From Synechococcales cyanobacterium bin31.maxbin.ball.101 (lineage in GTDB: Bacteria > Cyanobacteriota > Cyanobacteriia > Leptolyngbyales > Leptolyngbyaceae), in assembly GCA_013298165.1 (NCBI GenBank), contig JAAFJU010000005.1:1-64000 (forward strand): a stretch of DNA of 64,000 nucleotides. The letters run 5' to 3'. Shown in pieces: positions 34,955 to 58,534 of the stretch. The position numbers were made by a program, and so were the translations under genes. The first letter of the stretch is position 1. Every line of letters starts with the position of its first letter. The notes beneath the pieces are model-generated. The model was not told the DNA's origin, did not search any database, and saw only the letters and a program-made list of their open reading frames with translations.

Positions 34955-37363
34955 ATGGCTATGGATCCAATCAGAAATGGAAGCTCTGCTTCTCAAGGGA
35001 ATGCTCTGAATCCTCAGTCATCCGTTCCTGAACTTTCTGATCGGGACCGCACCATGATTGATCGGGCGATCGTCTACGCCCAGCAATCCGCCACGAATAG
35101 TCGATCGGACGATGAGGATGGCGAAGATGGCGAAGAGATTTCCATTCAGAAGATCTTTGCGTTTCTCAAGCGTCGGGCCTGGATTATGGCATCCGTGGGC
35201 GGCATTTCTGCCCTGGGTCTTTGCACGATGGTGATGGGGAGTCCACCGAGTTATATTGGCACCTTTAGGCTGTTGGCGGAACCTGTGACGAGCGGCAGTC
35301 AACTGGCCGATGATCTGACCGCCGATGCGGTGCAAAGTAACCAAGCCACCACGCGCCGATCGGTTTCGAATGCGTTGGACAATAGCAAAATTGACTATGT
35401 CAGTCAGATTGAAGTTCTCAAGAGTGAGACGACCTTAGAGCCAATTATCAAGCGCATCCAGGAAAAGTATCCTAAAATTACATACTCCACTCTTGTTAAT
35501 AGTATGAAAATCCAGCGCCCTAAGGACACCAAGGTGCTTGATTTTGCCTATGCTTCTAAAAATCCTGACGAAATCGATGTGGTGTTGAAGGAGTTGTCAG
35601 CGGGATTTATTCGTTACAGCATTGACGATCGGCGCAACAACCTCAAAGAAGGCAGCCAGTTCATCGAGGAACGCATTCAAAAACAGCGTCAAGAAGTCGA
35701 AGCCTTAGAAAGCAAACTCAGCATTCTGCGGAAACAATACAACATTGTTGATCCGAAAGCGGTCGTCGATCGGTTGGCCGATCAAATGAAAACGATGACC
35801 AGCGAGCAAGCCGCAACCCGGATTAAACTCGCTTCGGTCCAGAGCCTCTACGACAATCTCAAGCGGCAAACGGGCGTTGCACCCCAGCAAGCTCTAGCCC
35901 TGGCCAATTTGAGTGAATCCCCCAGCTATCAAGCACTCCTGACCAAACTCAGAGAAATTGATACCAAGATCGCCTTGGAATCAACGCGATTTGAAAATAC
36001 AACGCCGATGATGCAACTGCTGCAATCCCAGCGCAAGGAACTGTTGCCTGTGCTGCAAGCCGAAGCGCAGCGGATTATGGGAATTGATAATGGGGATTCG
36101 ACAAATCCTGAGGCGCTGGGATTTCAGGGTGCTGTGGGTCGAGACCTGACCAAGCAATTAGTGGATGCCGCGAATCAACTGCAGATTTTGACCAATCAAG
36201 CCCAGGTGATTCAACAGACGATCGCCCAGAATGGCCAGCAGACTCAAAATATTGCTGGAATTTCGTTGGAATATACCAAAGTGGTGCGCGAGATTGATAT
36301 TGCCACCAACAGTTTGACCCGGCTCCTCCTCGCTCGGGAAAACCTTCAGCTTGAATCCGCTCGTCAAGCGGCACCTTGGCAAATGCTGTCGAAGATTGAC
36401 GATCGCAGCATTGGCATCACAGGCAATAAGCCCATGATGTTTTTGCTGAGCTTACTGGCCAGCGGCGTGATTGGTTTAGTTGCGGCTTTGATTGCAGAAC
36501 AGCTCGATCGTGTTTTCCATGACGTTGAAGAACTCAAGGAAACCAATCTCCCCACCTTGGGAATTATTCCGTTCTACCAAGGTCTCAAACAAGAAACGGC
36601 CTTTGCCAATTTGGGCCGCTTAGCGCCGCAGGTGGATTCGCCTGCAGACCGGAAGTCTCAGCAATCCCATGCCGCATTCTTGGAATCGTTTTATACCCTT
36701 GATGCGAACCTGCGACTGCTGGGATCGGATCACCCGATTCGATCGATTACCATTACGTCCGCCAGTCCCGCAGATGGAAAATCGAGTATTTCATCTCATT
36801 TAGCTTGGGCCGCAGTCGCTATGGGCCGTAAGGTTCTACTCATTGACACGGACCTGCGGCGACCCCAGGTTCATCGCTGGTTTGGGATGCCAAATCTTCG
36901 GGGCTTAAGTAATGTGATTACGTCGGATACTGACATTCACGACTTCATTCAAGAATCCCCCCAAGATCCCAATCTATCCTTGCTGGCAGCAGGTCCGTTG
37001 CCGCCTTCTCCGGGACGACTGTTGAGTTCGAATAAAATGCGATCGTTGATTCAGCAGATGACGGAAGAGTATGACTTAGTGATTTGCGATGCCCCTCCGG
37101 TCGTGTTTGCGGATGCGAAACTGACGGCAGCGCATACGGATGGCATTCTCGTTGTTGTGGGTGTGGGTAAGACCGATCGGACCCATGTGTTGCAGGCATT
37201 GGGCGATCTGAAGGGGAATGCGCAATGTCCTGTGTTGGGGATTGTAGCGAACGGGGTGAAGAGTGCCGCCAGTGCCTCGTCCTATTACTACCAACGCTAT
37301 TACGAACAACGACCCGAGAAGAAATCGATTCTGTCTCCTCGCAAATTGCAGAAGCGATCGTAG
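34955..37363 (+). CDS. Wzc-like polysaccharide co-polymerase / BY-kinase
   Basis: 802 residues, fused PCP-2a membrane protein and bacterial tyrosine kinase. TM1 at about 72-92, a long extracytoplasmic coiled-coil domain (to about 485), TM2 at about 488-508, then a P-loop kinase with Walker A' SPADGKSS, Walker A'-type LLIDTDLRRP and VICDAPP. The C-terminus has a Tyr cluster (SSYYYQRYYEQ) for autophosphorylation. Such proteins control chain length and export of Wzx/Wzy-made polysaccharide, matching the flippase and polymerase genes downstream on the other strand. GGAG precedes the ATG. Confidence 0.92.
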   Translation: MAMDPIRNGSSASQGNALNPQSSVPELSDRDRTMIDRAIVYAQQSATNSRSDDEDGEDGEEISIQKIFAFLKRRAWIMASVGGISALGLCTMVMGSPPSYIGTFRLLAEPVTSGSQLADDLTADAVQSNQATTRRSVSNALDNSKIDYVSQIEVLKSETTLEPIIKRIQEKYPKITYSTLVNSMKIQRPKDTKVLDFAYASKNPDEIDVVLKELSAGFIRYSIDDRRNNLKEGSQFIEERIQKQRQEVEALESKLSILRKQYNIVDPKAVVDRLADQMKTMTSEQAATRIKLASVQSLYDNLKRQTGVAPQQALALANLSESPSYQALLTKLREIDTKIALESTRFENTTPMMQLLQSQRKELLPVLQAEAQRIMGIDNGDSTNPEALGFQGAVGRDLTKQLVDAANQLQILTNQAQVIQQTIAQNGQQTQNIAGISLEYTKVVREIDIATNSLTRLLLARENLQLESARQAAPWQMLSKIDDRSIGITGNKPMMFLLSLLASGVIGLVAALIAEQLDRVFHDVEELKETNLPTLGIIPFYQGLKQETAFANLGRLAPQVDSPADRKSQQSHAAFLESFYTLDANLRLLGSDHPIRSITITSASPADGKSSISSHLAWAAVAMGRKVLLIDTDLRRPQVHRWFGMPNLRGLSNVITSDTDIHDFIQESPQDPNLSLLAAGPLPPSPGRLLSSNKMRSLIQQMTEEYDLVICDAPPVVFADAKLTAAHTDGILVVVGVGKTDRTHVLQALGDLKGNAQCPVLGIVANGVKSAASASSYYYQRYYEQRPEKKSILSPRKLQKRS

Positions 37364-37482: not shown

Positions 37483-39306
37483 TTACACTGCAACATAAGG
37501 CGTTGCTTGTGTTTGGTCACGCCACGATCGGGCGTAGGTCCCGTTTTGTTCAAGCAGCGTATTGTGGTTGCCGGATTCAATCACCTCTCCGCCTTGCAAC
37601 ACATGGATCATATCCGCCCGCATCGCCAAGGTAAATCGGTGGGTAATCACGATCGCCGTGCGCCCATTGGCCATTCCCCGGAACCGATCGAGCCAGTCAT
37701 GCTCCGACCAAGAATCCATAAAACTGGTTGGCTCGTCCAAGATCAAAATCGGGGCTTGACGGATAAAGGCTCTGGCCAAGGCTATGCGTTGCCATTCGCC
37801 GCCACTTAAGTCGGTTCCTTCCGCGAACCATTTTCCAAGTCTTGTATTTTCCTGCTGGGGCAGACGATCGATAATTTCAGTTGCACCCGCTTCTGCAATG
37901 GCACTGCGGATTTCGTCCGGCGCAATCTCGCGATCGACATCCCCGAGGGCAATGTTTTCAGAAACCGTTTTCTGATAGGTCACTGGAAACTGGAACATCA
38001 CCGTCAACATCGATCGCCATTCGGCTTGGGAAAAGTCACGAATGTCGGCGTTATCGAGATTCACACTGCCCGTCTCGGGATCGTAAAACCGACAAAGCAA
38101 TTTAATCAGCGTACTTTTTCCAGCCCCATTTTCACCCACGATCGCCACAATCTTACCCGCAGGAATCGTCAGATTAAAGTCTTTGAAAATCCACCGATCG
38201 CTTCCAGGATAACGAAAGCTAACGTTTCGCAGTTCGATGCTTTCTTGGGGGGCGATCGGAATGGGTTTGGGTTGCGGCGGATCAACTAAGGTAGACGCCA
38301 TGTTGAGGTATTCAAAGAGATTGCCTAAGTACAGACTATTGCCGTAAATCTGACTAAGCTGCGTCAAAATCCCTTTGGCCAAGCCCTGGCCTCGGTTGAA
38401 GGCTTGATAAAAGAGGGCTAAATCGCCCAAGGTGAATTTACCTTGTAGCGCTTGCCAGAGCATCCAGGCCAAGGCCAAACCCGCCACCACCATCGCCATT
38501 AAACTCCCGCCCAATTGGGCGATCGTTTGTTCTTGGATCAGGCTGATATTTTCATTACGAAGCTGAGTGCGAAACCCTTCATAGCGCTTCCGAAAGTTAT
38601 CCCCTAACCCAAAAAGGCGCAATTCTGCTGCGGTATAACTTTGGGTAATCAGAAAGTCATGATATTCCGCTTGGCGACGCAGGGGTGTCGTCCGTTCCCA
38701 CCAGCGATGGTATTGTCGGTTGAATTTGGACAGAAAGTAAAAGGCAGGTAATGCGCTGATGATTAAGACGATCGGCAACCACAACCCGTAGGGAATCAAG
38801 ACAGCGGCGATCGTCACCAGCGTAATCAAATTCTGAATCAAACTCCCACTACTTTCAAGCAGTGTAATCGGACGACTGCTGGAATTGTTCCGGGCCTGAT
38901 GGAGCTTGTCATGAAACTCGGGCATCTCATGGAATGCCAGGTCCGCTTCGATCGACTTACGATGAACCAATGAATGAATATGGTCTGCCACATACTCAGA
39001 TTGAATCGTCCGTAAAATTGAGAGTCCTGTTTTTGCGAGTTCCGATAAGAGCAACGTTGCGCCCATGAGGAGGCAGGGCATCAGGAGAAGTTGAATACTG
39101 ACTTCGACATTCCTAAGGGCGATCGCCTGCACCAAGGTATCCACCAGCAGCTTCGTCAAATAAACCGTCGCCCCCGGCAGCAACCCCTGAATCACCAGCA
39201 AAATCCCCCAGCCCACCGTCGCCCGAGGCGCAGAAGCCCAGACCAAATCCAGGGTGGGTTTGATATAAACCAGTTGACTCAAGGCACGACGAAGCTTCTT
39301 CAACAT
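37483..39306 (-). CDS. ABC transporter of the lasso-type cluster (exporter/immunity)
   Basis: 607-residue fused permease-ATPase of the McjD/LasD type. Six transmembrane helices in the N-terminal half, then an ATPase domain with GENGAGKST (Walker A, about residue 390), LSGGEWQR signature, ILILDEPTSFMD and the ITHR switch. It lacks a C39 peptidase domain, as usual for lasso exporters, where the leader is removed by B2. Expected function: export of the mature peptide and self-protection. Last gene of the minus-strand cluster. Confidence 0.88.
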   Translation of the reverse strand: MLKKLRRALSQLVYIKPTLDLVWASAPRATVGWGILLVIQGLLPGATVYLTKLLVDTLVQAIALRNVEVSIQLLLMPCLLMGATLLLSELAKTGLSILRTIQSEYVADHIHSLVHRKSIEADLAFHEMPEFHDKLHQARNNSSSRPITLLESSGSLIQNLITLVTIAAVLIPYGLWLPIVLIISALPAFYFLSKFNRQYHRWWERTTPLRRQAEYHDFLITQSYTAAELRLFGLGDNFRKRYEGFRTQLRNENISLIQEQTIAQLGGSLMAMVVAGLALAWMLWQALQGKFTLGDLALFYQAFNRGQGLAKGILTQLSQIYGNSLYLGNLFEYLNMASTLVDPPQPKPIPIAPQESIELRNVSFRYPGSDRWIFKDFNLTIPAGKIVAIVGENGAGKSTLIKLLCRFYDPETGSVNLDNADIRDFSQAEWRSMLTVMFQFPVTYQKTVSENIALGDVDREIAPDEIRSAIAEAGATEIIDRLPQQENTRLGKWFAEGTDLSGGEWQRIALARAFIRQAPILILDEPTSFMDSWSEHDWLDRFRGMANGRTAIVITHRFTLAMRADMIHVLQGGEVIESGNHNTLLEQNGTYARSWRDQTQATPYVAV

Positions 39307-39347
39307 AGGGAAACCAGAATTTGAACAAGTCAGTAATAATAAACCTC

Positions 39348-39403
39348 ATGTTCCCCCAGAATATAGCCCTTACGGGCATCTCAGAAAGGGGGTTAGGGGG
39401 CGC
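39348..39403. repeat. C-rich dispersed repeat, copy 9
   Basis: Copy with CCCCCAGAATATAGCCC and GGGGGTTAGGGGGC in the kinase-exporter spacer. Confidence 0.65.
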
Positions 39404-39409
39404 GATCGG

Positions 39410-40321
39410 TTAGGAATTCAAAAAGTGGGATTCAAGCATCGTAGCGAGTTTTGGGAGATCTTCCAGGTTTTGCGATCGGATCATCCGATAAAAGGGGAGA
39501 GATTTTGCAAAATCGGTACATTGTTTAAACTGCGCAGGACTATGCTGTTGCAGCCACATGGTGGGTAATGAGTTTTTCATCATGCCAAAGACCGCATCAA
39601 TCTGTGCGCAGGGTTGAATATCGAGCGCTTCTCCAGCTTCTAACACGTAGATCTGTTTCAGGGGCAATGGCGTCTCTATAAATTGATGACGCGCATCAAA
39701 ACTCACTTCTCCGCATTCAGGATGTTTCTCAATAATGTGCGTTTCGCCGTAGTCCAGACAGGCGGCAACGGGTTCAGAGATCTTGAGGCGCGGATAGCCC
39801 GGATAGACCCAGTAGCCGCCCTCTTTAAAGACGATCGGAACGGCATCATCAGACAGTAATCGATGGCCTCTTTTGTACAGAGCCGCAGCAGTGGAAGACT
39901 TTCCGGTGCCCGACGGTGCAATGACTCCGACGACTTGATCCCCGATCGCCATGGCACTCCCATGCAGCGCTAAAATTCCGCGCTGATAGAGCAACACGGT
40001 TAGAATCGTGCCTAAAATATAGAGCCGAATTTGATTAAGATCTTGCGCCTCACTCGGTTGAATCAGAACTTCGCGCCCTTCCTTGAGGATAAAAAGCCCG
40101 TAGCGCCGATCGAATAACGTCCCCTCTTTTTCGTTTAAATCAGCGTAAATTAAATGAGGGCAGTTGTACCGATCGAAATCGGCGACCGTTGGATCAAAAT
40201 TAATATAGACATCGGCTTTTGATAAAAGCATCCCGCCACTTAAGGACGGCAATAAGGACGGCAAAGCTGGAATCTCAAGATTAGAATGAATGACTAATCC
40301 ATAAACCCAATAATGATGCAT
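39410..40321 (-). CDS. HprK-like peptide kinase of the lasso-type cluster
   Basis: 303 residues, related to the catalytic domain of HPr kinase. P-loop APSGTGKS at 135-142, the LLSDDAVPI segment at 155-163 (HprK-type acidic pair), and KISEP about 25 residues on. Kinases of this type occur in lasso clusters (for example in the paeninodin family), where they phosphorylate a C-terminal Ser of the precursor. Neither precursor here ends in Ser, so its target residue is open. It lies 178 bp after the second precursor, beyond a hairpin. Confidence 0.8.
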   Translation of the reverse strand: MHHYWVYGLVIHSNLEIPALPSLLPSLSGGMLLSKADVYINFDPTVADFDRYNCPHLIYADLNEKEGTLFDRRYGLFILKEGREVLIQPSEAQDLNQIRLYILGTILTVLLYQRGILALHGSAMAIGDQVVGVIAPSGTGKSSTAAALYKRGHRLLSDDAVPIVFKEGGYWVYPGYPRLKISEPVAACLDYGETHIIEKHPECGEVSFDARHQFIETPLPLKQIYVLEAGEALDIQPCAQIDAVFGMMKNSLPTMWLQQHSPAQFKQCTDFAKSLPFYRMIRSQNLEDLPKLATMLESHFLNS

Positions 40322-40378
40322 AAGGAAACTACAGTTAAACGGGACATTGATTAAAAGTATCTATATTCTCAGTTAGAG

Positions 40379-40427
40379 CTTGTTTCTAAGGTTTGTAGAA
40401 GATAACTCTAGAAACCCTAGAAACAAG
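40379..40427 (-). promoter_or_regulatory. Hairpin between precursor genes and kinase gene
   Basis: Perfect 10-bp arms (CTTGTTTCTA at 40379-40388 and TAGAAACAAG at 40418-40427) enclose 29 bases. No T-run follows on the minus strand, so it looks more like an mRNA-stabilising or processing hairpin that could raise precursor expression over the kinase and exporter. Confidence 0.5.
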
Positions 40428-40498
40428 ACTTAGATTGAGAAGAAGATAAAAAATTATCCTAACAGGCAATTCCTAAATCTTCTTAGTTCAACCTATTC

Positions 40499-40702
40499 TT
40501 AACGAACAGGATTACCGTTGTTGGTAATGTCGATCAACGATCCGCCAGTGGCGATCGGAGTCGTCACAGAAACACCGTTCACGACTAAGACGATCGAGTC
40601 TCCGCTACCCAATTTTTTGTTGAAATCAACGTTATTTTGGGTGATTTTGGAGGCAGGGCCGTAGTTCTTAAGTGCAGGAGTAGACCATGTTTGCTTTGTC
40701 AT
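40499..40702 (-). CDS. Lasso-type RiPP precursor 1
   Basis: 67 residues. The leader TWSTPALKNYGPASKIT (residues 5-21) matches the W/YxxPxLxxYGxxxxIT recognition sequence bound by PqqD-like B1 proteins. The following region has KKLGSGDSIVLVVNGVSV and ends with SLIDITNNGNPVR. The only Asp that could close a lasso ring is in GSGD; no Thr at the expected second-last leader position precedes a start seven to nine residues before it. A good ribosome site (AAAGGA) supports translation. Paralogue of the next gene. Confidence 0.8.
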   Translation of the reverse strand: MTKQTWSTPALKNYGPASKITQNNVDFNKKLGSGDSIVLVVNGVSVTTPIATGGSLIDITNNGNPVR

Positions 40703-40768
40703 TTTAAGTTCCTTTGGTAGACAAGATTTATCAGTTGAAATTCATCATCTGAGTGTGCAAATTGAAGT

Positions 40769-40972
40769 CTAGTTCCGTTGGATGTTGATGAGCGATCGCC
40801 CAGCAGCAGCCCCAGAAGCCACAACAGTTGTGACGCCTGCGATCGTGACAGTGATCGTATCACCTGCACCACCGCTTTTTGTCACAGTCCCGACGGGCTG
40901 TTGTTCTGTGATATCTTCTACGTTGCCGTAGAAGCTTAGTCGAGGTTTCGACCAAGGTTGTTTTTCAATCAT
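40769..40972 (-). CDS. Lasso-type RiPP precursor 2
   Basis: 67 residues. Leader PWSKPRLSFYGNVEDIT (6-22), then QQPVGTVTKSGGAGDTITVT, an Ala/Gly/Val-rich stretch and SLINIQRN at the end. Shares with precursor 1 the pattern G-x-G-D-[ST]-I, GV[ST] and SLI[DN]I. If the core begins at the Thr after GTV, Thr would sit at leader position -2 and the Asp at core position 8, but the core would be 37 residues, much longer than known lasso peptides. AGGA is well placed before the ATG. Confidence 0.8.
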   Translation of the reverse strand: MIEKQPWSKPRLSFYGNVEDITEQQPVGTVTKSGGAGDTITVTIAGVTTVVASGAAAGRSLINIQRN

Positions 40973-41022
40973 GGTGAGTTTCCTCAGAAGTTGAATGAGT
41001 CGAGGGAAGCTGTTCTGAATTT

Positions 41023-41046
41023 CAGGAATAGAACCCCCATATTATA
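41023..41046 (-). promoter_or_regulatory. Candidate precursor promoter (-10 TATAAT)
   Basis: In the 175-bp spacer ahead of precursor 2 the minus strand reads TATAAT (at 41041-41046), giving a start near 41035 and a leader of about 60 nt. The -35 region is weak. A promoter here would express the precursors separately from the enzymes. Confidence 0.35.
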
Positions 41047-41147
41047 TTTAGACCTAATTCGCGGAAAATGCGTAGATTTATTCTAAAATTCATCTAAATA
41101 TTACAAACAAAGGGTGGATTCCACTTAGAATTTGTGATAAAGGAAAT

Positions 41148-43046
41148 TTAAATTCTGTCTAACCAAATCCCCAAGTTCGTGGCGGCGTAGACTTGGAGTG
41201 CGGCCTGCTCGTTGAGGGGATCCTGATTGTATTGTTGATAGGCTTGGGCGAGGAAGTTTGACTCTAGATAGCTTGTGATCACTGAGTTGGGATTGAGAAT
41301 ATATTTTTCAATCCGCGATCGTTCTTCCTGCAGGAGTCGGGGCTTGGTATTGGCTCCGAGGTTGGCTTTGCTAAGACGCTGACGAATTTCATCCGGTAAA
41401 ATTCCCTGGGTTCCCCGTCGCGCAATCAGCCGAGTGATCCCCTGTCGAAACTTCTGTTCTGGCGGTAAAGAGACGCAAAATTGCATCAAGCGCCGATCGC
41501 AAAAGGGATATCTCAGTTCCACATCAAAGGCCGCTGCGGACCTGTCGGCGAGTTCCAGTGCATACTGCAACAGTCCGGACTGGAGGCTATAGCAATGGGC
41601 ATGGCGGGCCGTTGTCATCTCAGGCAAATGATACTGCTGTTTCAGAAGTTTTTGCGCGTAGGTGGACAGCTTTAACTGTTGCGCAAATTTTGGCTGAAGT
41701 CCCGATCGTTTCCATAGGGGAGACCGGGCTTCTTGGAGCATGGCCCATCCAGAATAAAGCCAGCGAGGAATCTTGCCTTTAAAGCCCCAGTCCCAGGCTA
41801 GTAGAGGGATTGGGTAGTTTGTAACGCGAGCGTAGGCGCGGATTTCTTTGGCAAATTGTTTGAATTTCCCCGTATCTAGCAACTCAATTAAATAGGGCTG
41901 ACCGTGGGAAACGGTGCTGTCTCCGTCAATGCCATCCATCACAATGCGAACTTGATTGCTTTTAGCCCGATCGTACCAAGCCCAGTTGTAGTAGAGATTA
42001 GGGGCAAAAAATGGCTCATCCATATGCCAAAACATTTGTTCCGCATGGCCGAGGGGATTGAGCCGATCGCCTTCAATAAAGTGCGGGGTGAAGTTGCCTT
42101 GTTCGAGGACTTTTTCCACATAAAAGCGTTCATCAATCAGCTTGCGATGCGCTTCGGGTAAATTGTCAAAACTTGTGGAAAAGGTGTGAACGGTGTTGTG
42201 TTGTGTTTCACCCAGCAAGGTCCTAGCCGTACAGGCGATCGAGCTAGAGTCCAAGCCACCGCTGAGCATAGAGCCAATGGGAAAGGCCGATCGCATTCGA
42301 CAGCGCACGGCCTCGGTCAACTGCTCCCGATAGGCTTCAGCGTAGTCATAGTCGGAGCTAAGCTTGAGTTCGGTATCGCGATCGAGCTGCCAATATTGTC
42401 GCATGGCAAATTTGCCCGCCGCCACTGTGAGGCAGTGGGCAGCGGGCAAACGCAGGATATGTTCGTAGGCTGTGATTTCGGGGTCTTCTAAAAGCCGCAT
42501 CATGAGTTGAGCAATGCGCAACTCATTAACGATTTTTGGAATCTTCGGGACTTGGAAAAGCGCTTTGATTTCGGAGGCGAAGGCAAAGAGATGCGGCGAA
42601 TGGTAATAAACAAAGGGTTTAATTCCCATCGGATCGCGGGCACAGAAGAGTTTTTGCTGTGGCTGATCCCAAATGGCAAAGGCAAAATCGCCAATCAGCT
42701 TTTCAGGACAGTCTTCACCCCATCGACCATAGGCCGACAAAATCAGGTCACTGTCGGTGATCTTGCCGGGTTCTCGCCGATCGAGTCCCAGTTGTTCAAT
42801 CAGTTCGGTTCGATTATCAATGCGAGCATCCGCCGTAATCACCCAAGCATTTTGCTGCTTAGGCAATGCTTCAATCAGCGACTCCGGCGTCGTCCAAAGC
42901 ATCCGAGACCCCAGTCCAACCTGCCCCTCTGCCCAAACCCCACCTCCATCTTTGCCGCGATGCTTCAGACTATCCGTCATCGCTGCGAGGGTATGGGAGT
43001 CAATGGGTTCTTGATTTAGGGCGTAAAGCCCAACGATCGCACTCAT
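41148..43046 (-). CDS. Asparagine-synthetase-like lasso cyclase (C protein)
   Basis: 632 residues, asparagine synthetase B homologue. The N-terminal glutaminase-like domain begins MSAIVG: Ser replaces the catalytic Cys2, so it cannot release ammonia from glutamine. The C-terminal domain keeps the ATP pyrophosphatase loop SGGLDSS (262-268). In lasso clusters this protein adenylates an Asp/Glu side chain of the core for macrolactam formation with the new N-terminus. Gene order with B1, B2 and precursors supports that role rather than asparagine synthesis. The long C-terminus (about 420-630) includes the conserved YPFCDRRLMQFC segment. Confidence 0.9.
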   Translation of the reverse strand: MSAIVGLYALNQEPIDSHTLAAMTDSLKHRGKDGGGVWAEGQVGLGSRMLWTTPESLIEALPKQQNAWVITADARIDNRTELIEQLGLDRREPGKITDSDLILSAYGRWGEDCPEKLIGDFAFAIWDQPQQKLFCARDPMGIKPFVYYHSPHLFAFASEIKALFQVPKIPKIVNELRIAQLMMRLLEDPEITAYEHILRLPAAHCLTVAAGKFAMRQYWQLDRDTELKLSSDYDYAEAYREQLTEAVRCRMRSAFPIGSMLSGGLDSSSIACTARTLLGETQHNTVHTFSTSFDNLPEAHRKLIDERFYVEKVLEQGNFTPHFIEGDRLNPLGHAEQMFWHMDEPFFAPNLYYNWAWYDRAKSNQVRIVMDGIDGDSTVSHGQPYLIELLDTGKFKQFAKEIRAYARVTNYPIPLLAWDWGFKGKIPRWLYSGWAMLQEARSPLWKRSGLQPKFAQQLKLSTYAQKLLKQQYHLPEMTTARHAHCYSLQSGLLQYALELADRSAAAFDVELRYPFCDRRLMQFCVSLPPEQKFRQGITRLIARRGTQGILPDEIRQRLSKANLGANTKPRLLQEERSRIEKYILNPNSVITSYLESNFLAQAYQQYNQDPLNEQAALQVYAATNLGIWLDRI

Positions 43047-43065
43047 ATAAGATTAAAAATATAAA

Positions 43066-43530
43066 TCAAAGTGATCCGGCCATTCCTTGATAAAACTGTT
43101 TTTCGAGTCGCTTGTACCGATCGATTTCAGGCAGCCAGCCCATGACGATCTGTTGTTCGCTTTCGATCCAAGCATGGGCTTGAAGTTCTCCGCTTTCCGC
43201 TTTGAGGACGCCGATACAGAGGTCATAGGGATAGCCATTCTGACCCATGAGAATTTGAGTGGTCATGGCTTTGGCTAAACATTTTGCACCTCCAGGCATC
43301 ACTTTTGCGGCCCGGTCTACAGACCAAGTCAGACCGTAGAGGGTGTAGTAGCCATCCGATCGAAGGGTCTTCTGAGCGATCCGATCGACTTTGGCCTGTA
43401 GCTGCGCAAAGCGTAAAAATCGTAGTCCCAATCGCACTAAGGTCAACCAGAAAAAGGCTTGCAGAAACAGACCTATGGCGGCGAGTTTAATTCGAATGCC
43501 ATTTTTGATTTTATGGAGCAATGATTTCAT
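43066..43530 (-). CDS. Lasso B2 leader peptidase (transglutaminase-like)
   Basis: About 154 residues. Homologue of the B2/McjB C-terminal cysteine protease that removes the leader. Catalytic Cys in PGGAKCLAKAM (C84) and His in LQAHAWIE (H119); the third residue is not clear, since the place where many B2 proteins have Asp reads GW. An N-terminal hydrophobic stretch (AAIGLFLQAFFWLTLVRLGL) may touch the membrane. The ATG at 43530 lies 13 bp after the B1 stop and is preferred over a TTG that overlaps B1. Confidence 0.88.
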   Translation of the reverse strand: MKSLLHKIKNGIRIKLAAIGLFLQAFFWLTLVRLGLRFLRFAQLQAKVDRIAQKTLRSDGYYTLYGLTWSVDRAAKVMPGGAKCLAKAMTTQILMGQNGYPYDLCIGVLKAESGELQAHAWIESEQQIVMGWLPEIDRYKRLEKQFYQGMAGSL

Positions 43531-43543
43531 GCCTTCATCCCCC

Positions 43544-43822
43544 TTAGTCAAGACTAATTAAGTCGGCTTCACTCAGACTGATGAGCAGTTCTTTGAGTTC
43601 CCGATCGCAGTCTTCGGGGGTGACATCATATTCATCTAAGAGTGTTTGCCGAAGGTCTGCAAGGGTCTGGGGGGTTTGGATCAGGGTCCAGATTTTGACG
43701 CCGACGTTGTTAAGTCCGTAGTACAGCCCGGAGGTCATGTGCAGCAAGATAGTTTCGCCTTCGAGGTCCGATGAGATTTGATCGGGGAGGGCTGAAATGA
43801 GGGTCGTATCGATTAAGGTCAT
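43544..43822 (-). CDS. Lasso B1 protein (PqqD-like leader-binding domain)
   Basis: 92-residue standalone RiPP recognition element. The PqqD fold shows in ETILLHMTSGLYYGLNNVGVKIWTLI (beta strands followed by the first helix) and the C-terminal helices with DVTPEDCDRELKELLISL. It binds the precursor leader and presents it to B2. Separate B1 and B2 genes are the norm outside proteobacteria. Stop codon 13 bp ahead of B2, so probably co-translated. Confidence 0.9.
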   Translation of the reverse strand: MTLIDTTLISALPDQISSDLEGETILLHMTSGLYYGLNNVGVKIWTLIQTPQTLADLRQTLLDEYDVTPEDCDRELKELLISLSEADLISLD

Positions 43823-43928
43823 AAAATTATGAATAATGGTAGATTTACAAGATATACATCATTTTTGAGCTTTTGCATCGTAGCCGATCGCGTAATCCTT
43901 TATACAACCATCATTGAATTGCCATGAT

Positions 43929-45170
43929 TCATTTGACGAGGAACTTAAAGAGGTTTTGGCGATAGTCTCGGATGATGCGGAGGGGGCGGATTAGGTAGTA
44001 GAGGAAGTGGAGTGGTTTTGGCAATTGGATCACGTCGGTGTCGCGGTAGTTGATGGCGAGGCTGAATTTGATGACTCGTTCGATCGAGCCTAATACATAT
44101 TTACGACGAGCGGATGTGTATTTTAGTCCAACCCATTTGAGGATGAGAGCTTCGATCGGATTTCGAGATTTGAGGGTTTCAAATTCGTACATGAATTTTC
44201 GGCAAATCCGATCGACGAGCCAAGTGGTGGACCGATCGCGTTTGATATGGGTGAGTACGTCGTCGGGGAGTGGGGCTTCGAGGAGTTGGTGGGCGAGGAG
44301 TAAGCCGAATCCGATGATGCGATCGGTTTTAAGCTTACGGGTTTCGGAGAGGATGTAGTCCCATTCGAGGTGTTCGGCTTGGCGCTGGAGGATGCCTGCG
44401 ACGTCACAGACGCTGCGTAGGATTTCCCAGCCGTCTTTGAAGCCGTTCATGCAGAGGTAGATGAGGAGATCGCTGTGGGAGAAGGTTTGGATTTCTTTGC
44501 CTGCGATCGTGATGGTGATGAGTCGGTTCCAGAGTTGGGGGAGATCGCCGAAGAGGGTGAGATCTCCGTTCCCTAAGGGGCGACGGTGAATATCTAAGGT
44601 GATGCCGTTTTTTTCGCGAACCAGGGGGTATTCACCGAAGTAGTAGCGGAAGCGATCTTCTTCTCCTTCGGATATTGCAATACGAGGTGGAGTAATGTAA
44701 CCATACTGAGAAAGTATCAGCTTTGGCTTGAGGTAGTCTTCTTGTGAAGTCAAAATATCTAAATCATCAAAAGAACGCAAATCTAATTTCCCATAGGCAA
44801 ATAAGGATAGAAGTGGTCCTTTGTAAGGGATTGCACAAATGTTTGTTTCTTTCAGAATACTAAGGACACGAATTAATTCAAAAAACATCTTAAGTGCTTG
44901 ATTTTGGTGCGCTCCAATATTATTAGCAATAGTAAAAGAGAGCTTTTTTCTGACTCTTGAAGGAATATTTTTCCAGTTCTTCTGATTTAATCTATAGTGC
45001 AAGATGGGAATATTTCGATGAATGATTGCAAGATCAACTACTTTTAACCAATCAATCTCCTCTAAAAAATTATCTAGGATAGGCTTTTCTAAATTATTTA
45101 AATCTACATAAAAAACAGTTGTAGAAGTAGGAACAGAATATCTAGGACAAATTGAGAGTTCAGAATCCAT
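43929..45170 (-). CDS. Nucleotidyltransferase-fold protein of the lasso-type cluster
   Basis: 413 residues of the uncharacterised nucleotidyltransferase family (PF14907 type) often found beside lasso genes and HprK-like kinases. The NTase core includes ICAIPYKGPLLSLFAYGKLDLRSFDDLDIL (Gly-containing loop and acidic DDLD pair) and ITLDIHRRPLG as the third acidic strand. In pseudomycoidin biosynthesis a homologue adds hexoses to the phosphate placed by the kinase, so a similar tailoring step is possible. AT-richer in its 5' half than its 3' half. First gene of the peptide cluster, 51 bp after a glycosyltransferase gene. Confidence 0.8.
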   Translation of the reverse strand: MDSELSICPRYSVPTSTTVFYVDLNNLEKPILDNFLEEIDWLKVVDLAIIHRNIPILHYRLNQKNWKNIPSRVRKKLSFTIANNIGAHQNQALKMFFELIRVLSILKETNICAIPYKGPLLSLFAYGKLDLRSFDDLDILTSQEDYLKPKLILSQYGYITPPRIAISEGEEDRFRYYFGEYPLVREKNGITLDIHRRPLGNGDLTLFGDLPQLWNRLITITIAGKEIQTFSHSDLLIYLCMNGFKDGWEILRSVCDVAGILQRQAEHLEWDYILSETRKLKTDRIIGFGLLLAHQLLEAPLPDDVLTHIKRDRSTTWLVDRICRKFMYEFETLKSRNPIEALILKWVGLKYTSARRKYVLGSIERVIKFSLAINYRDTDVIQLPKPLHFLYYLIRPLRIIRDYRQNLFKFLVK

Positions 45171-45221: not shown

Positions 45222-46355
45222 CTATGGATTCAGATGATATTCCGATTGTTGTGAATTGTGGACTACTTCTTTGTAAAGGACCATTGTTTTTTTCATCATA
45301 TGTGTGAATTCAAAGACTGATTTGTAAGATGATCGGCTTTTAGAACCCATTTCAGCACGTAGGTTAGGACTGTTGGACAATTTTTCTAAGCGCTTAGTAA
45401 GAGTAATCGTATCACCTCGTGGGATACAATATCCATTGATGCCATCTAAGACTGCTTCAGATACACCACCAACATCAGATGCCACGATTGGAAGCCCTGC
45501 GCGCATCGCCTCAAGAATTGATCTAGGAAAGCCTTCCCAGTTAGATATTAATACAAAAAAGTGAGCTTCACTTAAGACCTTTGCAATTTGTGGACTATTG
45601 CATGATCCTAAGAAGCAAACTCGGTTAGATAGTTCTAGCTTTTTGACAAGGTCTTTATTTTTTTGTAGCAGTGGACCATCTCCGATTAAGTCAAGATGTA
45701 GATTAGGAACGTTAGCTAAAGCTCTCAGTAGCGTTCGGTGATCTTTTTGACGATCGAAACGAGCAATCATTACTGCACGTACTACGGGAGAGGGTAGGTG
45801 AGGTTGAGAATATAATGAAGATGAGATGTCAGGCATTCCATTATGGACAGTTATTAATCTATGAGGAGACATCCCAATGCGCACTCCTAATTTACGATCG
45901 TAATGTGATACGCAAATTATGGTATTAGAAAACTGCTCTACCGCCTTTTCTATACGTTTATAGATCTCGCTTTGTAATTTTGGCACACCATTTGTAAATG
46001 ACCATCCATGTGCAGTAAAAATACAAGGTATGTTAAGTGAATGACAAACAAGACGTCCAATAATACCTGCTTTGCTTGAATGCAGGCTAACCATATCAGG
46101 CTGAAATTGCGATATCTTCCTTTTTAATTCTAGGAATATCTGGAAATCGTTAAACAATGAAATTTCTGAAAGAAATTTACTGCAAGAGGTGTTTGGTATT
46201 GAGTATGAATCTAATTCAAAGTTGTATATCCCATTTTTTCCAGTGATCACCATTACCTCATGGCCATAAGATATTAGATAGTTGGCAATATCTCGCACAT
46301 GGATCTGTGCCCCACCTATCGTATCCGATCGTGTAATGACAAATAATATTCTCAT
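45222..46355 (-). CDS. Glycosyltransferase family 4
   Basis: 377-residue GT-B enzyme of the GT4 family. N-terminal acceptor domain (RILFVITRSDTIGGAQIHV, VSLHSSKAGIIGRLVCH, FTAHGWSF) and C-terminal donor domain with ARFDRQKDHRTLLRA, and the EX7E-type motif in SNWEGFPRSILEAMRAGLPIVAS. Transfers a sugar to the lipid-linked repeat unit at the inner membrane face. Clearly paralogous to the GT4 at 47535-48644. Start taken at MRILF; the frame opens nine codons earlier. Confidence 0.87.
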   Translation of the reverse strand: MRILFVITRSDTIGGAQIHVRDIANYLISYGHEVMVITGKNGIYNFELDSYSIPNTSCSKFLSEISLFNDFQIFLELKRKISQFQPDMVSLHSSKAGIIGRLVCHSLNIPCIFTAHGWSFTNGVPKLQSEIYKRIEKAVEQFSNTIICVSHYDRKLGVRIGMSPHRLITVHNGMPDISSSLYSQPHLPSPVVRAVMIARFDRQKDHRTLLRALANVPNLHLDLIGDGPLLQKNKDLVKKLELSNRVCFLGSCNSPQIAKVLSEAHFFVLISNWEGFPRSILEAMRAGLPIVASDVGGVSEAVLDGINGYCIPRGDTITLTKRLEKLSNSPNLRAEMGSKSRSSYKSVFEFTHMMKKTMVLYKEVVHNSQQSEYHLNP

Positions 46356-46420
46356 TGCCCAAGACTTATGCGAATTTAGCATCTTAGACTTAAATTAAGA
46401 AGAAGTTAAGTCTTCTTAAT

Positions 46421-47434
46421 TTATACAGGAATATAATAGTAAGACTTATACCATTCAGAAAACTTTTCAATTCCTTCACAAATTGAAGTTGATGGGTAAA
46501 ATCCAAAATCTTGTTCTAAATCTTTTGTGTCTGCATAGGTTGCAGACACATCACCTGGTTGCATAGGCAAAAAGATTTTCTTAGCTGTTTGGCCTAGAGA
46601 GACTTCAAGCTGTTCAATAAAGTCCATTAATTGAATAGGGGAGCTACTTCCAATATTGTAAATTTTATATGAAGGATTAATATTAGGGATAGCTTTTTCA
46701 TTCTTAGAATTAGTATTTGAAGATAGGTGAGAATTAAGGATAGCGATCGTACATTTCACTACGTCATCTATGTAAGTAAAGTCGCGTGACATCAAGCCAT
46801 TATTGAAGATGTTAATTGGATGACCTTTCAAAATTGCCTCTGCAAATAAGCAGGGAGCCATATCAGGTCTACCCCAAGGTCCATACACAGTAAAAAATCT
46901 TAGTCCCGTCATGGATATTCCATAAAGGTGACTATAACTATAGGCCATGAGTTCATTTGATGCTTTAGTCGCAGCATATAAGCTCATAGGACGACTAATA
47001 TGATCTGAAGTGGAGAATGGTATTTTTGAATTAGCTCCATATACTGAACTAGAGGAGGCAAAAATTAGGTGAGGAACTGAAGATTGTCTGCATCCTTCTA
47101 AAATATTATGGAAACCGACTAAATTACTATCTATGTATTCATAGGGTTTCTCTAGAGAGAAGCGAACACCGGCTTGCGCGGCAAGATTAATAACACAGTC
47201 AAAATGATTCTCTTCAAATAGTTTCTGGATACTAATCCGATCGGATAAATCAACCTTTTGAAATTTGAAGTTTGAATGTTTTTCGATTTCAGATAATCTA
47301 TTTTTTTTTAAATCCACATCATAATAAGAGCTTAAGTTGTCAATGCCTATGACCTGTTCACCACGATCGAGTAATTTTTTCGCAATATGAAGTCCAATAA
47401 ATCCAGCCACTCCAGTTACCAAAATGCTAGACAT
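46421..47434 (-). CDS. NAD-dependent epimerase, UDP-glucuronate 4-epimerase type
   Basis: 337-residue extended short-chain dehydrogenase. NAD motif GVAGFIGLHIA at residues 8-18, Ser in ASSSSVYG, catalytic YAATK near 153, and TGLRFFTVYGPWGRPDMA, typical of UDP-glucuronate 4-epimerases. It would supply UDP-galacturonate for the polysaccharide. Length is standard. Located between two paralogous GT4 genes. Confidence 0.85.
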   Translation of the reverse strand: MSSILVTGVAGFIGLHIAKKLLDRGEQVIGIDNLSSYYDVDLKKNRLSEIEKHSNFKFQKVDLSDRISIQKLFEENHFDCVINLAAQAGVRFSLEKPYEYIDSNLVGFHNILEGCRQSSVPHLIFASSSSVYGANSKIPFSTSDHISRPMSLYAATKASNELMAYSYSHLYGISMTGLRFFTVYGPWGRPDMAPCLFAEAILKGHPINIFNNGLMSRDFTYIDDVVKCTIAILNSHLSSNTNSKNEKAIPNINPSYKIYNIGSSSPIQLMDFIEQLEVSLGQTAKKIFLPMQPGDVSATYADTKDLEQDFGFYPSTSICEGIEKFSEWYKSYYYIPV

Positions 47435-47534
47435 AAGCCTTTAGATTGATTTACATTCAAAATCTTATCATTTTAATTGTGTTTACATTTTACTCGATGA
47501 AATTATATAGAAAATTTTACAGTTAAATAAATTA

Positions 47535-48644
47535 TTAATTGTGAGACATTAAGATATCCTTATATATTTTAGAAATTTCTTCCACCATATAGGAAATTGT
47601 AAATTGCGATTCAAATTTTTTTCGCCCTTCTTCACCGAAACTTGCTCGTAGCTGTGGAGATTCAGTCATTATTTTGAGAGTTTCAGCTAAACTTTCAATA
47701 TTTCTAGGTGGGACGATTAAACCTGTAGATTGGTGTTCAACTTCTTCAGGTACACCATTCACAGCACTTGCAAGTACGGGTAAACCAGCGCGCATTGCTT
47801 CAAGAATACTAATTGGGAGTCCCTCATAGTGGGTACTGAGAATAAATGCTTGCGATTGAGCCAATAAATCAGGGACATCTAATCGATCGCCAAGAAAGGA
47901 TACACGCTCCCATACACCTAGCTCTTTAGCAAGCTGCTTACATGATTCTAAAGATGGACCACTTCCAACAAAATCGATATGCAGTGGAAGCTGAGGTATT
48001 AAGGCTAACGCTTTCAGGAGTGTAGGTTGATCTTTCTGCTCATTAAAACGAGCAACCATGATAAAACGCGGTGGTTGCTTAGATAAGTTAGGGGACTGAA
48101 TAGGTTTGTCGTGGATGCCATATCGAACAGTCGTGAGAACTCGTTTATTTCCTATAGATTTATTCAAAGCTTGCTGTCGATCGCTCTCTGAAACACAAAT
48201 GATTCGCGCAGTCAAAGAGGCCAATAATTTCTCAACGACAAGTGCTATTAAACCTCTAAACTTTGGAGTACCTGGCGAGAACCCCCACCCATGTGCAGTA
48301 AAAACCGTTGGAACGTTACATATTTTTCCGGCGATGCGAGAGATTGTCCCGGCTTTACTACTATGCGCATGAATCAGTTCAGGCTTTACCTGATGAATTA
48401 AGCCAATAAAATCCTTCACACATTTAAAATCCTTTGCAGGATTAATACTTCGTATCAGACTAGGGATGATGTAAACAGGAATATTTAAAGAGGTTACATT
48501 GTCAACTAGTGGACCTAGACATCCAACAGCAAGAATGACGTTATAGCGAGACGAGAATGACTGAAGCAGATCAAGAACATGACCTTGAGCGCCTCCAAGA
48601 TCGCTATTGGTAATTACATACAAAATTGTAGGGCGGGATGACAT
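47535..48644 (-). CDS. Glycosyltransferase family 4
   Basis: 369 residues, GT4. Same landmarks as the neighbouring GT4: ILYVITNSDLGGAQGHV, IHAHSSKAGTISRIAGK, FTAHGWGFSPGTPKF, ARFNEQKDQPTLLKAL, STHYEGLPISILEAMRAGLPVLAS. The high similarity of both, including FTAHGW and HSSKAG, points to gene duplication followed by divergence in donor or acceptor preference. Sugar specificity is unknown. Confidence 0.88.
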   Translation of the reverse strand: MSSRPTILYVITNSDLGGAQGHVLDLLQSFSSRYNVILAVGCLGPLVDNVTSLNIPVYIIPSLIRSINPAKDFKCVKDFIGLIHQVKPELIHAHSSKAGTISRIAGKICNVPTVFTAHGWGFSPGTPKFRGLIALVVEKLLASLTARIICVSESDRQQALNKSIGNKRVLTTVRYGIHDKPIQSPNLSKQPPRFIMVARFNEQKDQPTLLKALALIPQLPLHIDFVGSGPSLESCKQLAKELGVWERVSFLGDRLDVPDLLAQSQAFILSTHYEGLPISILEAMRAGLPVLASAVNGVPEEVEHQSTGLIVPPRNIESLAETLKIMTESPQLRASFGEEGRKKFESQFTISYMVEEISKIYKDILMSHN

Positions 48645-48742
48645 ATTATCTTACTAGTTCAGAGAATCACAATAAATTGACTAATGCCTGAAGACTATCA
48701 CAAAAGTTTAATGCATAACAAACAAGTAAAGCTCACTTCGAT

Positions 48743-49417
48743 TCATTCAAACGATTCTGGTACATTCCAAGAATCTTTACTGCCCAAGACTCCATAGTAG
48801 GTGATGTAAAATAGTAGTTTTTTCGTTTCACTCAGAACCCATTTACGAGAAGCTTCATCTTCCCACCAATTCCCATACGAAGTATCCGATAAATCGTAAG
48901 CAGAAAAGGTTTTTACTTCAATCGAATTACCTAGAACATGATCGAATACCCATTTAGATCGACGTAGGTGATACTTACTAGTAACGATCGTTATGGATCT
49001 CGGCTTCAATTGATATTTTTCAAGAACCTTCGAAAAAGCACGTGCTTCTCCAAAGGTCGTCTCTGGATTATGACCTCCCCAAAATATCTTAACTTTAGAT
49101 GTGTCTGTCCTTTGAGAGAGTTGCTGAAAGTATTCAGCAGAGATTGAGTCTACATACAACATGTTAGACTTTCCTTGTCTTACTAACTTCTCTGCAGTCT
49201 CTATTCGATTTGTACCACCTAAAGCAACAATAATATCTGAATCTACGTTAACACTTTCTTGAGAAAGCCAAGCACCATATGCTCTAAGAATAGGCTGATG
49301 CAAGGAAACGGTTAAAACTGATAGAGAAATAAGAAAAGCAAAATATTTTTTTTTATTTGAATGAGTTAAGTGATTTTTTTCACCTTGAAACGATCTTCGA
49401 CAGTTCAATATTTTCAT
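48743..49417 (-). CDS. YdcF/SanA-like DUF218 protein
   Basis: 224 residues. A hydrophobic N-terminal segment (YFAFLISLSVLTVSLHQPIL, about 25-45) anchors a DUF218 domain: DIIVALGGTNRIETAEKLV, GEARAFSKVLEKY and ITIVTSKYHLRRSKWVF are the family signatures. Members such as SanA and ElyC act in envelope and lipid-carrier metabolism but the reaction is unknown. Its place in a polysaccharide cluster fits a role in undecaprenyl-linked precursor handling. Confidence 0.8.
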   Translation of the reverse strand: MKILNCRRSFQGEKNHLTHSNKKKYFAFLISLSVLTVSLHQPILRAYGAWLSQESVNVDSDIIVALGGTNRIETAEKLVRQGKSNMLYVDSISAEYFQQLSQRTDTSKVKIFWGGHNPETTFGEARAFSKVLEKYQLKPRSITIVTSKYHLRRSKWVFDHVLGNSIEVKTFSAYDLSDTSYGNWWEDEASRKWVLSETKKLLFYITYYGVLGSKDSWNVPESFE

Positions 49418-49460
49418 CTGAGAACCCTGGACGTTAACGACAAAAAGTGTTGGTATTTAG

Positions 49461-50519
49461 CTAAATTATTTGAGCATTTTTTAATTTTTGATTTAGATAT
49501 GACTCCGAATGATTTTTTTCAAAAAATTCTATTGCAGACCAATACCGCTGCTCATATTCCTGGAAAGACATGCTAAAGATTTTATCCAAGCAATTTAATA
49601 TAGAGTCAGGCGAACTAAAATCAACGACCAACGTAAAATCCAGGTCTTTAATATCTTTAAACGACTCAATATCATTAATAATCAACAGTTTTCCATATGC
49701 TAAAGCCTCAGTAACCGTTCCACTCTGAGTATTATTTAGATAGGGAATGACTAGAAAATGCGACAGTCCCATCAAAAAAGATTTTCCATTTTGTGATAAA
49801 TACCCAGGAAATTCGATAATCCTTTTTGTGTCATACGATACTTTTCCGACCAGATCTCTCCCTGCCCTAACAAAATCAACTTGATCACCATATATAGAAC
49901 ATGCAATGTTCATAAATGACACAAAACCATCTGGATTATTCTCTTGATTATAAAAAGTGCCGAGGAAAGAAAATTTTTTATTAAATTTCCAAGCGCTTTC
50001 TAGTTGAGCTAAATTTTTAATTAAGTTCTGCTTTCGTTGTGAAGGAAAGGTTAGATTAACTTTAAAAGATTTTTCGCTAGGAACTATATGCAATGCACGC
50101 TTCACTGCATTATCGCTAGGTAGAAAAACTTGGTTCGAAACCATACCGAGAAGTTTATTAAAAAGAAAAATCATAATAACCTTAGAATACTTTCCCCTGC
50201 GAAACTCTATAAATGGCTCATGCATTAAATAGTAAATTTTTAAATTACCATTTTTTAGGTAAGCGATCGTCCTTAGAACGAGGACTAGCGGCACATACCT
50301 AAGGTTAATTGCAAACAAAAATATTGATGTAGAAGCATTTGCAACTAAAACTGATTTAGTCAAAGTGATTAGATTCTTAAAATATTCAATAAAACTTCTT
50401 AAAGCCAAATAATTGACCTGAAACTCTTGAGTGTTAGTTAAATTAATTGCTAGGTAGAAACTTTCAGGACAATGGAATAAGTTCTTATTCTTAGGGATGA
50501 CAAGCCAATAGTTTTTCAT
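49461..50519 (-). CDS. Probable GT-B glycosyltransferase
   Basis: 352 residues, AT-rich. Weakly similar to GT1/GT4-type enzymes: an N-terminal domain with IYYLMHEPFIEFRRGK, then the donor-side features FSFLGTFYNQENNPDGF and VIPYLNNTQSGTVTEALAYGKLLIIND, in which the SGTVTEALAYG stretch corresponds to the nucleotide-sugar-binding helix. Specificity unknown. The ATG at 50519 is preferred to a GTG 13 codons earlier. Part of the minus-strand cluster. Confidence 0.65.
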   Translation of the reverse strand: MKNYWLVIPKNKNLFHCPESFYLAINLTNTQEFQVNYLALRSFIEYFKNLITLTKSVLVANASTSIFLFAINLRYVPLVLVLRTIAYLKNGNLKIYYLMHEPFIEFRRGKYSKVIMIFLFNKLLGMVSNQVFLPSDNAVKRALHIVPSEKSFKVNLTFPSQRKQNLIKNLAQLESAWKFNKKFSFLGTFYNQENNPDGFVSFMNIACSIYGDQVDFVRAGRDLVGKVSYDTKRIIEFPGYLSQNGKSFLMGLSHFLVIPYLNNTQSGTVTEALAYGKLLIINDIESFKDIKDLDFTLVVDFSSPDSILNCLDKIFSMSFQEYEQRYWSAIEFFEKNHSESYLNQKLKNAQII

Positions 50520-50587
50520 AATAGTAAGGAGTATATCACTAACAATAAGTGACCGCACGACGTAAAAATATGAGAATGAATTTAGAT

Positions 50588-51214
50588 TTATACTGGATAA
50601 GGTCGTGGATTCCCTTGAAATTTTCTATAGTATGGATGATGAGCAGTTAGTAAAATCTCTTTGTCTCCTTTACTGTCGCCATAAGCAAAAAGAATATATT
50701 CTTCTAAGTCCGGAACAAGAAGCTGTAATCTTCTAAGCTTTTCTGCGCCATAACAATTTTTTCCAATAATTGAACCGATCATAATGCCTTCCTTAGAAGC
50801 TAACTGAGTACCAATGATATGATCAAATCCTAAATTTTTTCCAAATGGAGTCAGATAAATTTCAGGAGAGGCACTTACCAAAATAAGTGTATGCTCTCTA
50901 GCTTTATGCCAAAGTAATTTATCTAGAGCATCTTGCTTCAAGTTCTTAAGTAAATAAGAATAGCAAAATTTCTCTGCGACAATACTTATATCGCTTAGAC
51001 TGCTGCCAAATAAAAAAAACTTCAGCAACATACTCTTTGCAGAATGATTGTCTAACACCCTCAAAAAATAAAGTAAAAAGTATGGTAAGAATAATACTAG
51101 TTTTACAATAAATACATAAATACCTGAATGAAGTTTCAGAAAGGGGATTAGTGAATCCCCTTTAAGGAGAGTATGATCGAAATCAAAAATCGCTATGGTT
51201 TTTGAAGAAGGCAT
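50588..51214 (-). CDS. HAD-IB family phosphatase
   Basis: 208-residue HAD hydrolase of the SerB-like IB subfamily. Motif I FDFDHTLLKGDS near residue 9, motif II ILVSASPEIYL near 112, motif III/IV YGDSKGDKEIL near 186. Two genes upstream lies a UbiA-type phosphoribosyl transferase; in decaprenyl-phosphate pentose pathways the product of that enzyme must be dephosphorylated, and HAD domains are often linked or fused to such UbiA proteins, so this enzyme may do that step. ATG at 51214 preferred over an upstream TTG. Confidence 0.82.
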   Translation of the reverse strand: MPSSKTIAIFDFDHTLLKGDSLIPFLKLHSGIYVFIVKLVLFLPYFLLYFLRVLDNHSAKSMLLKFFLFGSSLSDISIVAEKFCYSYLLKNLKQDALDKLLWHKAREHTLILVSASPEIYLTPFGKNLGFDHIIGTQLASKEGIMIGSIIGKNCYGAEKLRRLQLLVPDLEEYILFAYGDSKGDKEILLTAHHPYYRKFQGNPRPYPV

Positions 51215-51326
51215 AAATTTAATAGTGAATACTAGAGGCAAAAAACTGAAACACTAAGATTTATACAATAAATTTCCCCACTTAGCTTTCAACATTAAAA
51301 CTTGTTTTGAGTGGCTATTTCAAAGC

Positions 51327-52028: not shown

Positions 52029-52114
52029 AAATAAGTTGACGTTCAGTGTATTTGACTTAAAAAATTGAGACTAGTACAACTCAATCAATTTGGTAGAAAA
52101 GAATTTAGATTTTA

Positions 52115-54821: not shown

Positions 54822-54844
54822 AGTGATTAAATTGTACTAGAGAT

Positions 54845-56056: not shown

Positions 56057-56060
56057 TAAA

Positions 56061-57434: not shown

Positions 57435-57545
57435 TGTTTACACAAAAGAGAACAAAATCTGAGCTAGTCCTATCTGACTATTATGCTTTAAAGTAGATAG
57501 GGCTAGTCATCATATCATTTCAAAAATGGAGGAAAATTATTAAAT

Positions 57546-58250: not shown

Positions 58251-58534
58251 GATTTACCTCTAGGAAAATGCTTTACTGGATCTTAAATAATGAATGGTGG
58301 TGCAAACAGTATTTATTTCTACTAGGCCAGATTTTAACTTATAGCCATAAGCGGATTTAAGAATAGCAGGAAACGTAATCTCTCTTGACTACGCTCACAC
58401 TTGTGATATTTAAAGTAGATTAATAATCTATCTCCTTATCGTATCAATTTCTTAATTGGGTTCAAATCTTGATCTAAATTTTAATTTCCACGACTTAAAT
58501 TCTTACAGTCTTAATTTCCAATGGTGGTCTACCA
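58251..58534. other. AT-rich spacer, no gene seen
   Basis: First part of the 404-bp spacer between the flippase and methyltransferase genes; the rest is the 92-bp MITE-like element. I see no ORF, hairpin terminator or strong promoter here. Confidence 0.4.

Follow-up and report, generated by a model that had tools for sequence, protein, structure and literature searches.

The window analysed here, a 64,000-nucleotide stretch from Synechococcales cyanobacterium bin31.maxbin.ball.101 (contig JAAFJU010000005.1, positions 1 to 64,000), carries on its minus strand (37483-45170) an intact lasso-type pathway for a ribosomally synthesized and post-translationally modified peptide (RiPP), which encodes in this order a nucleotidyltransferase, B1, B2, an AsnB-like cyclase, two 67-residue precursors, an HprK-like kinase and an ABC exporter. 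The pathway is that of a distinct cyanobacterial clade (W clade), and its two precursors represent a branch that had so far gone unremarked, where the spacing that normally defines the ring is lost and an invariable Lys-to-Asp unit, KxxGxxD, is retained. This pattern points to a possibly novel mode of ring closure. The reading that we favor, with a probability of roughly 40%, is that the ε-amine of this Lys, and not the N-terminus, closes the ring in the W clade.

Lasso-type leaders with a displaced acceptor residue

The published rule for lasso precursors places YxxPxL at leader positions -17 to -12, Thr at -2 and the acceptor acid at core positions 7-9 (PMC10368454). An original prediction, made from the sequence of the window alone, had pointed to two small peptides with B1-type leaders, and both indeed conform to Y/W(-17)xxP(-14)xL(-12) with Thr(-2), the residue at -17 being Trp.

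40769..40972, minus strand: precursor 1, 67 residues; leader W(-17)..P(-14).L(-12)..T(-2)E(-1), then core QQPVGTVTKSGGAGDTITV...; AGGA upstream of ATG
40859..40879, minus strand: KSGGAGD, the KxxGxxD unit of precursor 1; Lys9 to Asp15 if cut after Thr-Glu
40499..40702, minus strand: precursor 2, 67 residues; leader W..P.L..T(-2)Q(-1), then core NNVDFNKKLGSGDSIVL...; AGGA upstream of ATG
40598..40618, minus strand: KKLGSGD, the KxxGxxD unit of precursor 2; Lys7 to Asp13

Counted from the Thr(-2) site, the Asp stands at core positions 15 and 13, whereas an Asp or Glu at 7-9 is found in 71 of 81 sister precursors. Neither window precursor fits the acid rule, and a classical lasso product can therefore not simply be assumed. 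Matches of both to lasso precursor models were weak and under cut-off. The Shine-Dalgarno-like AGGA lies a few bases upstream of each ATG; precursor 1 has a close counterpart at loci L197 and L198, and counterparts of precursor 2 are present at L197. Given these ribosome-binding sites and the relatives at the same place in L197, both precursors are real genes.

A constant KxxGxxD unit at variable distance from the leader

Alignment of 103 precursors by their leader motif yielded two groups, 81 of Tyr-type and 22 of Trp-type. In the former, position -17 is Tyr (rarely another residue), the acceptor acid occupies core position 9 in 50 precursors, 8 in 18, 7 in 3 and 10-11 in ten, and the residue six places before it (D-6) is mostly Gly. 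The Trp-type precursors, which come from 17 genomes including that of the window, keep the leader geometry unchanged (Trp at -17, Pro at -14, Leu at -12), with Thr(-2) invariant at its usual distance (22/22), and place the acceptor Asp at core position 8, 9, 10, 11, 13, 14 or 15. The KxxGxxD unit is nonetheless constant: the Asp and a Gly at D-3 occur in all 22 and a Lys at D-6 in 21. At L194, where two Asp residues stand side by side, the second was counted as the acceptor. The Asp is followed without exception by a small residue (S, G, T, D, A).

When one representative was taken from each of ten lineages, Lys fell at the common offset D-6 in nine, a value reached by none of 20,000 shuffles; when positions were numbered from the leader instead, no Lys position was common to more than four of the ten. 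Mere shared ancestry was ruled out as the source of the invariant Lys, since other ring positions are just 19% identical between lineages.

The precursor at L078 (genome G096) reads KLSGKSD, a KxxGxxD unit, and has a Tyr-type leader.

A cyclase clade with its own insertion

In a tree of 66 cyclases, the 15 of Trp-type fell on one side of a branch with a Shimodaira-Hasegawa-like approximate likelihood ratio (SH-aLRT) support of 99, and the Tyr/Trp state of the leader changed once on this tree, a result found in 0 of 500 shuffles. The window cyclase groups with that of L197 (56% identity), a locus that has the same two kinds of precursor and an identical gene order.

All 15 W-clade cyclases contain a loop insertion of 4-5 residues that is absent from the 46 sister (Y-clade) cyclases compared. 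It lies just before the conserved DER motif, the sequence there being FPxLxxxxxxxIDER in the W clade and FDxVxECDER in the sister group.

42141..42152, minus strand: W-clade-specific insertion in the window cyclase, ~residues 299-302, '...EAHRKLIDER...'

Catalytic motifs are retained. By comparison with the AsnB family, the insertion loop presumably follows the strand lining the nucleotide site; a sequence search of the PDB found no lasso cyclase structure.

Trp-type clusters without their own B2

The Trp-type clusters L112 (genome G432) and L113 (genome G422) have no B2 gene, B1 being followed directly by the cyclase gene. The only B2 in these genomes belongs to another cluster, of the D9 type, whose leaders have Thr(-2), and a single B2 may thus serve two pathways. 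If it does serve both, cleavage would occur after Thr-x, which speaks against a moved cleavage site. The loss of B2 at L112 and L113 was not accepted as proof that no cleavage takes place, because the B2 of the second cluster is present.

Closure of the ring

For the W clade we infer the cleavage site, ring bond, threading, tailoring and export as follows. B1 would bind the Trp-type leader and B2 would cut after Thr(-2)-x, where cleavage is expected because the leader geometry is unchanged and matches the published rule (PMC10368454). The AsnB-like cyclase would adenylate the conserved Asp, and the attacking amine would most likely be the ε-amine of the invariant Lys six residues upstream rather than the N-terminal α-amine. 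The resulting 26-atom lactam ring would join two side chains, leaving the N-terminal stretch free and variable in length and the C-terminal tail possibly still threaded. Phosphorylation and additional modification of the peptide would then be the work of the HprK-like kinase and the nucleotidyltransferase, with export left to the ABC protein.

The size of the K(i)-D(i+6) ring, as computed, equals that of a Gly1-Glu8 ring, and the ring of microcin J25 also has 26 atoms. The corresponding values for X1-Asp8 and X1-Asp9 are 25 and 28, and 28 ring atoms are given for a nine-residue ring (PMC13352647). Closure through Lys accounts for a fixed Lys-Asp distance alongside a free leader-Asp distance. 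A more tentative proposal, held a little less firmly than the Lys closure itself, is that W-clade cyclases switched nucleophile, so that a Lys-Asp ring of this size, decoupled from leader cleavage, could bear an N-terminal tail of any length and possibly a threaded C-terminal tail (a two-tailed side-chain lasso).

Lactams between the side chains of Lys and Asp or Glu are made in graspetides (microviridins and others) by ATP-grasp ligases. The bond proposed for the W clade is of the same type, but the window cyclase is AsnB-like, and Pfam and NCBIfam gave no ATP-grasp ligase match among the cluster proteins.

Several points weigh against closure through Lys. We know of no AsnB-type RiPP cyclase that uses a Lys side chain, and none was found in the literature searched. 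In lariocidin, the ring Ser1-Lys2...Gly7-Asp8 is closed via the α-amine (PMC11451635); a Lys at ring position 2 need therefore not be the nucleophile. The sole precursor without Lys at D-6, at L191, has it at D-7. Elsewhere in the Trp-type precursors a small residue (T, N, P, V, S, A) occupies D-7, as might be expected of residue 1 of an eight-residue ring. Finally, a Lys that is invariant for target binding would give the same sequence pattern.

An ordinary lasso peptide would result if B2 or a second peptidase cut before the residue preceding Lys, to leave an eight-residue ring ([TSNVPA]1-Lys2-x-x-Gly5-x-x-Asp8), or one residue earlier, to leave a nine-residue ring. In keeping with such a cut, ring size would stay at eight across lineages, D-7 is small everywhere except at L191, a comparable ring exists in lariocidin (PMC11451635), and the residue at -2 is not obligatorily Thr, as Ile(-2) in BsfA illustrates. 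However, a moved cut should let Thr vary and conserve the new -2 residue, and it is Thr with its neighbors that is invariant at the usual distance from W/YxxPxL (22/22), whereas the would-be -1 and -2 residues are unconserved (entropy ~2.7 bits). Pro would, in addition, become residue 1 at L071 and L073, and the two genomes lacking their own B2 have only a B2 of Thr(-2)-type. We regard a moved cut as unlikely, though far from negligible. Enlarged N-terminal macrolactams, formed by cleavage after Thr-x and attack by the α-amine, would have between 8 and 15 ring residues (15 and 13 for the window precursors). They would require no departure from the established cleavage rule or chemistry, and the acid is already at 10 or 11 in 10 of the 81 sister precursors. 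They would nevertheless not explain why Lys and Gly are invariant and stand at a fixed distance from Asp, lasso rings are stated to comprise 7-9 residues, and a ring change of a single residue is reported to be harmful to production (PMC13352647); rings of this size appear quite improbable.

The cluster may instead be an ordinary lasso-like one whose Lys and Gly serve solely to bind a target, the kinase or the exporter, the ring register being unreadable from sequence or the Asp being activated otherwise, for example as an aspartimide. Basic residues are conserved also in ribosome-binding lariocidin-like peptides, and the small residue after Asp would suit aspartimide formation, but no methyltransferase gene appears in the set among the profile matches of the cluster proteins, and a role in target binding fails to explain why the distance to Asp is fixed when that to the leader is free. 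Such an arrangement is improbable in our judgment. That the cluster is degenerate and yields no product would agree with precursors that score under curated cut-offs and with the lack of relatives in 41 other genomes of the order, which makes it probable that the cluster was acquired. All reading frames are intact, however, motifs are kept, the precursors have ribosome-binding sites and the two-precursor arrangement is conserved with L197, so that we give very little credence to a non-producing locus.

The accessory genes and known systems

The full gene set claimed in the original prediction was found at the coordinates given there and in one direction, and B1, B2 and an AsnB-like cyclase are encoded alongside small precursors, as in lasso clusters.

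43929..45170, minus strand: NTP_transf_5 nucleotidyltransferase-like protein, 413 residues, first gene of the set (PF14907, 170.6 bits)
43544..43822, minus strand: B1, PqqD/RRE-type leader-binding protein, 92 residues (PF05402, 57.4 bits; NF033536, 70.2 bits, under its cut-off of 80)
43066..43551, minus strand: B2, transglutaminase-like leader peptidase, 161 residues (NF033537, 85.1 bits, cut-off 33)
41148..43046, minus strand: C, AsnB-like lasso cyclase, 632 residues, W-clade member (NF033535, 750.3 bits, cut-off 525)
39410..40321, minus strand: HprK-like peptide kinase, 303 residues (weak TIGR00679/PF07475; Hpr_kinase_C 30.3 vs 33.3; Walker A APSGTGKS, LLSDD motif)
37483..39306, minus strand: ABC exporter, 607 residues (PF00005, 117.5 bits; homologues in most clusters)

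The Cys and His motifs of B2 (KCLAKA, AHAW) and the motif of the nucleotidyltransferase are intact, and the cyclase retains its SGGLDSS loop and the D/E/R/K positions conserved in the family. The replacement of Cys2 by Ser in the cyclase had been correctly predicted, yet it is ordinary: Ser2 is near-invariant family-wide, which rules it out as a special feature. Counterparts of the nucleotidyltransferase gene occur at L197, L070, L112, L190 and further loci, and a homologue of the HprK-like kinase adjoins nearly all cyclase loci examined. Where the original prediction saw a lasso set with tailoring and export, the lasso-type pathway stands, and the kinase, nucleotidyltransferase and ABC protein form an accessory set known from paeninodin and pseudomycoidin; a product of classical type cannot simply be taken for granted, given the positions of the Asp.

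Lasso-type clusters are already known from cyanobacteria, and NCBIfam holds models for cyanobacterial lasso cyclases and B2 proteins. The window shares with these clusters (NF033535, NF033537, NF033528) a cyclase and a B2 over cut-off and the set of B1, B2, C, precursors, HprK-like kinase, ABC exporter and nucleotidyltransferase. It differs in precursors that fall under the NF033528 cut-off, in Trp for Tyr at -17, in Asp at core 13 or 15, in Lys for the common Gly at D-6 and in the cyclase insertion. The lariocidin/triculamin ring (PMC11451635) resembles the pattern [TSN]-K-x-x-G-x-G-D, a comparison in which the start of the window ring is presumed; those systems have hosts of other phyla and other tailoring genes, and their strongly basic core is absent in the window.

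In the paeninodin and pseudomycoidin systems, which possess a kinase (PadeK, PsmK) and a nucleotidyltransferase (PsmN), phosphorylation takes place on the C-terminal Ser, and hexoses are attached as well (PMC9266682). The window cluster likewise has an HprK-like kinase beside B1, B2 and C and a nucleotidyltransferase, which by analogy may be a PsmN-like tailoring enzyme, but its precursors end in Asn and Arg, not Ser. A C-terminal Ser is present in 9/22 W-clade precursors, and 16/22 have a Ser within the last three residues. The kinase of another cluster is reported to modify Ser3 instead, and a C-terminal Ser is thus not a universal feature.

Distribution and genomic setting

The family cyclase model matched in 20 of 386 cyanobacterial genomes (17 over cut-off), close cyclase homologues were found in 36 of 100 relatives of genome G078, and the neighborhoods of ~65 cyclases show the same accessory genes. 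A contig scan with the whole window cyclase gave just one relative. Order-wide searches around genomes G653 and G750 added four precursors, all Y-type with Asp at 9, and no new W members; tblastn against plasmids returned two distant matches only. The other 41 genomes of the window's own order contain no relative, and this precursor type is absent from them. Vertical descent within the order is therefore unlikely, and the cluster was probably acquired horizontally.

Other loci showed individual features. A haloarchaeal plasmid, NC_015658.1 of Halopiger xanaduensis, carries a B1-B2-cyclase set with a nucleotidyltransferase, its cyclase being 36% identical to that of the window. Three lasso-type precursors (GTLLPPPVGSD..., Asp at 11, no Lys) and an HprK-like gene lie at L196:14089-15997, with no cyclase in the nearby fetched sequence. 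Rows of ~320-residue proteins with weak B1-like matches stand beside lasso genes at L080 and at L078 (G096). Six tandem lasso precursor genes, one masked by Ns, occupy L057:5833-7843, and at L114:9696-10660 the nucleotidyltransferase gene appears split in two frames and is probably broken in that genome.

A long exopolysaccharide operon, likewise on the minus strand (genes ~45.2-63.9 kb), ends just upstream of the window cluster. As predicted, the cluster is flanked by a glycosyltransferase gene (45222-46382), ~50 bases away, and by a Wzc gene (34955-37363), which adjoins on the opposite strand. The G+C content of the exopolysaccharide genes (46000-60000) is ~0.31-0.37, compared with ~0.5 in most of the window. 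A Wzc-like gene is near 17 of 65 cyclase loci (~0.94 Mb) against about one expected, roughly ten times or more over chance, where the expectation is very roughly one gene per megabase from ten whole genomes and many of the 17 loci come from one family of genomes and are non-independent. The polysaccharide setting is a recurrent neighborhood, a matter of proximity rather than a sign of joint chemistry, and does not establish that the peptide is released with, or modified like, surface material, as had been suggested.

Implications

Since lasso peptides are built from the N-terminus, the leader has to be removed exactly and no N-terminal end stays free. If the cleavage site or the ring size has changed in the W clade, the clade would still depart from the stated rules (Thr(-2), 7-9 residues). 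If Lys closes the ring, a new reaction would be added to those of AsnB-type cyclases, N-terminal fusions to lasso-like rings would be permitted, and it would be explained why tools that require an acid at position 7-9 likely miss or mis-assign such precursors.

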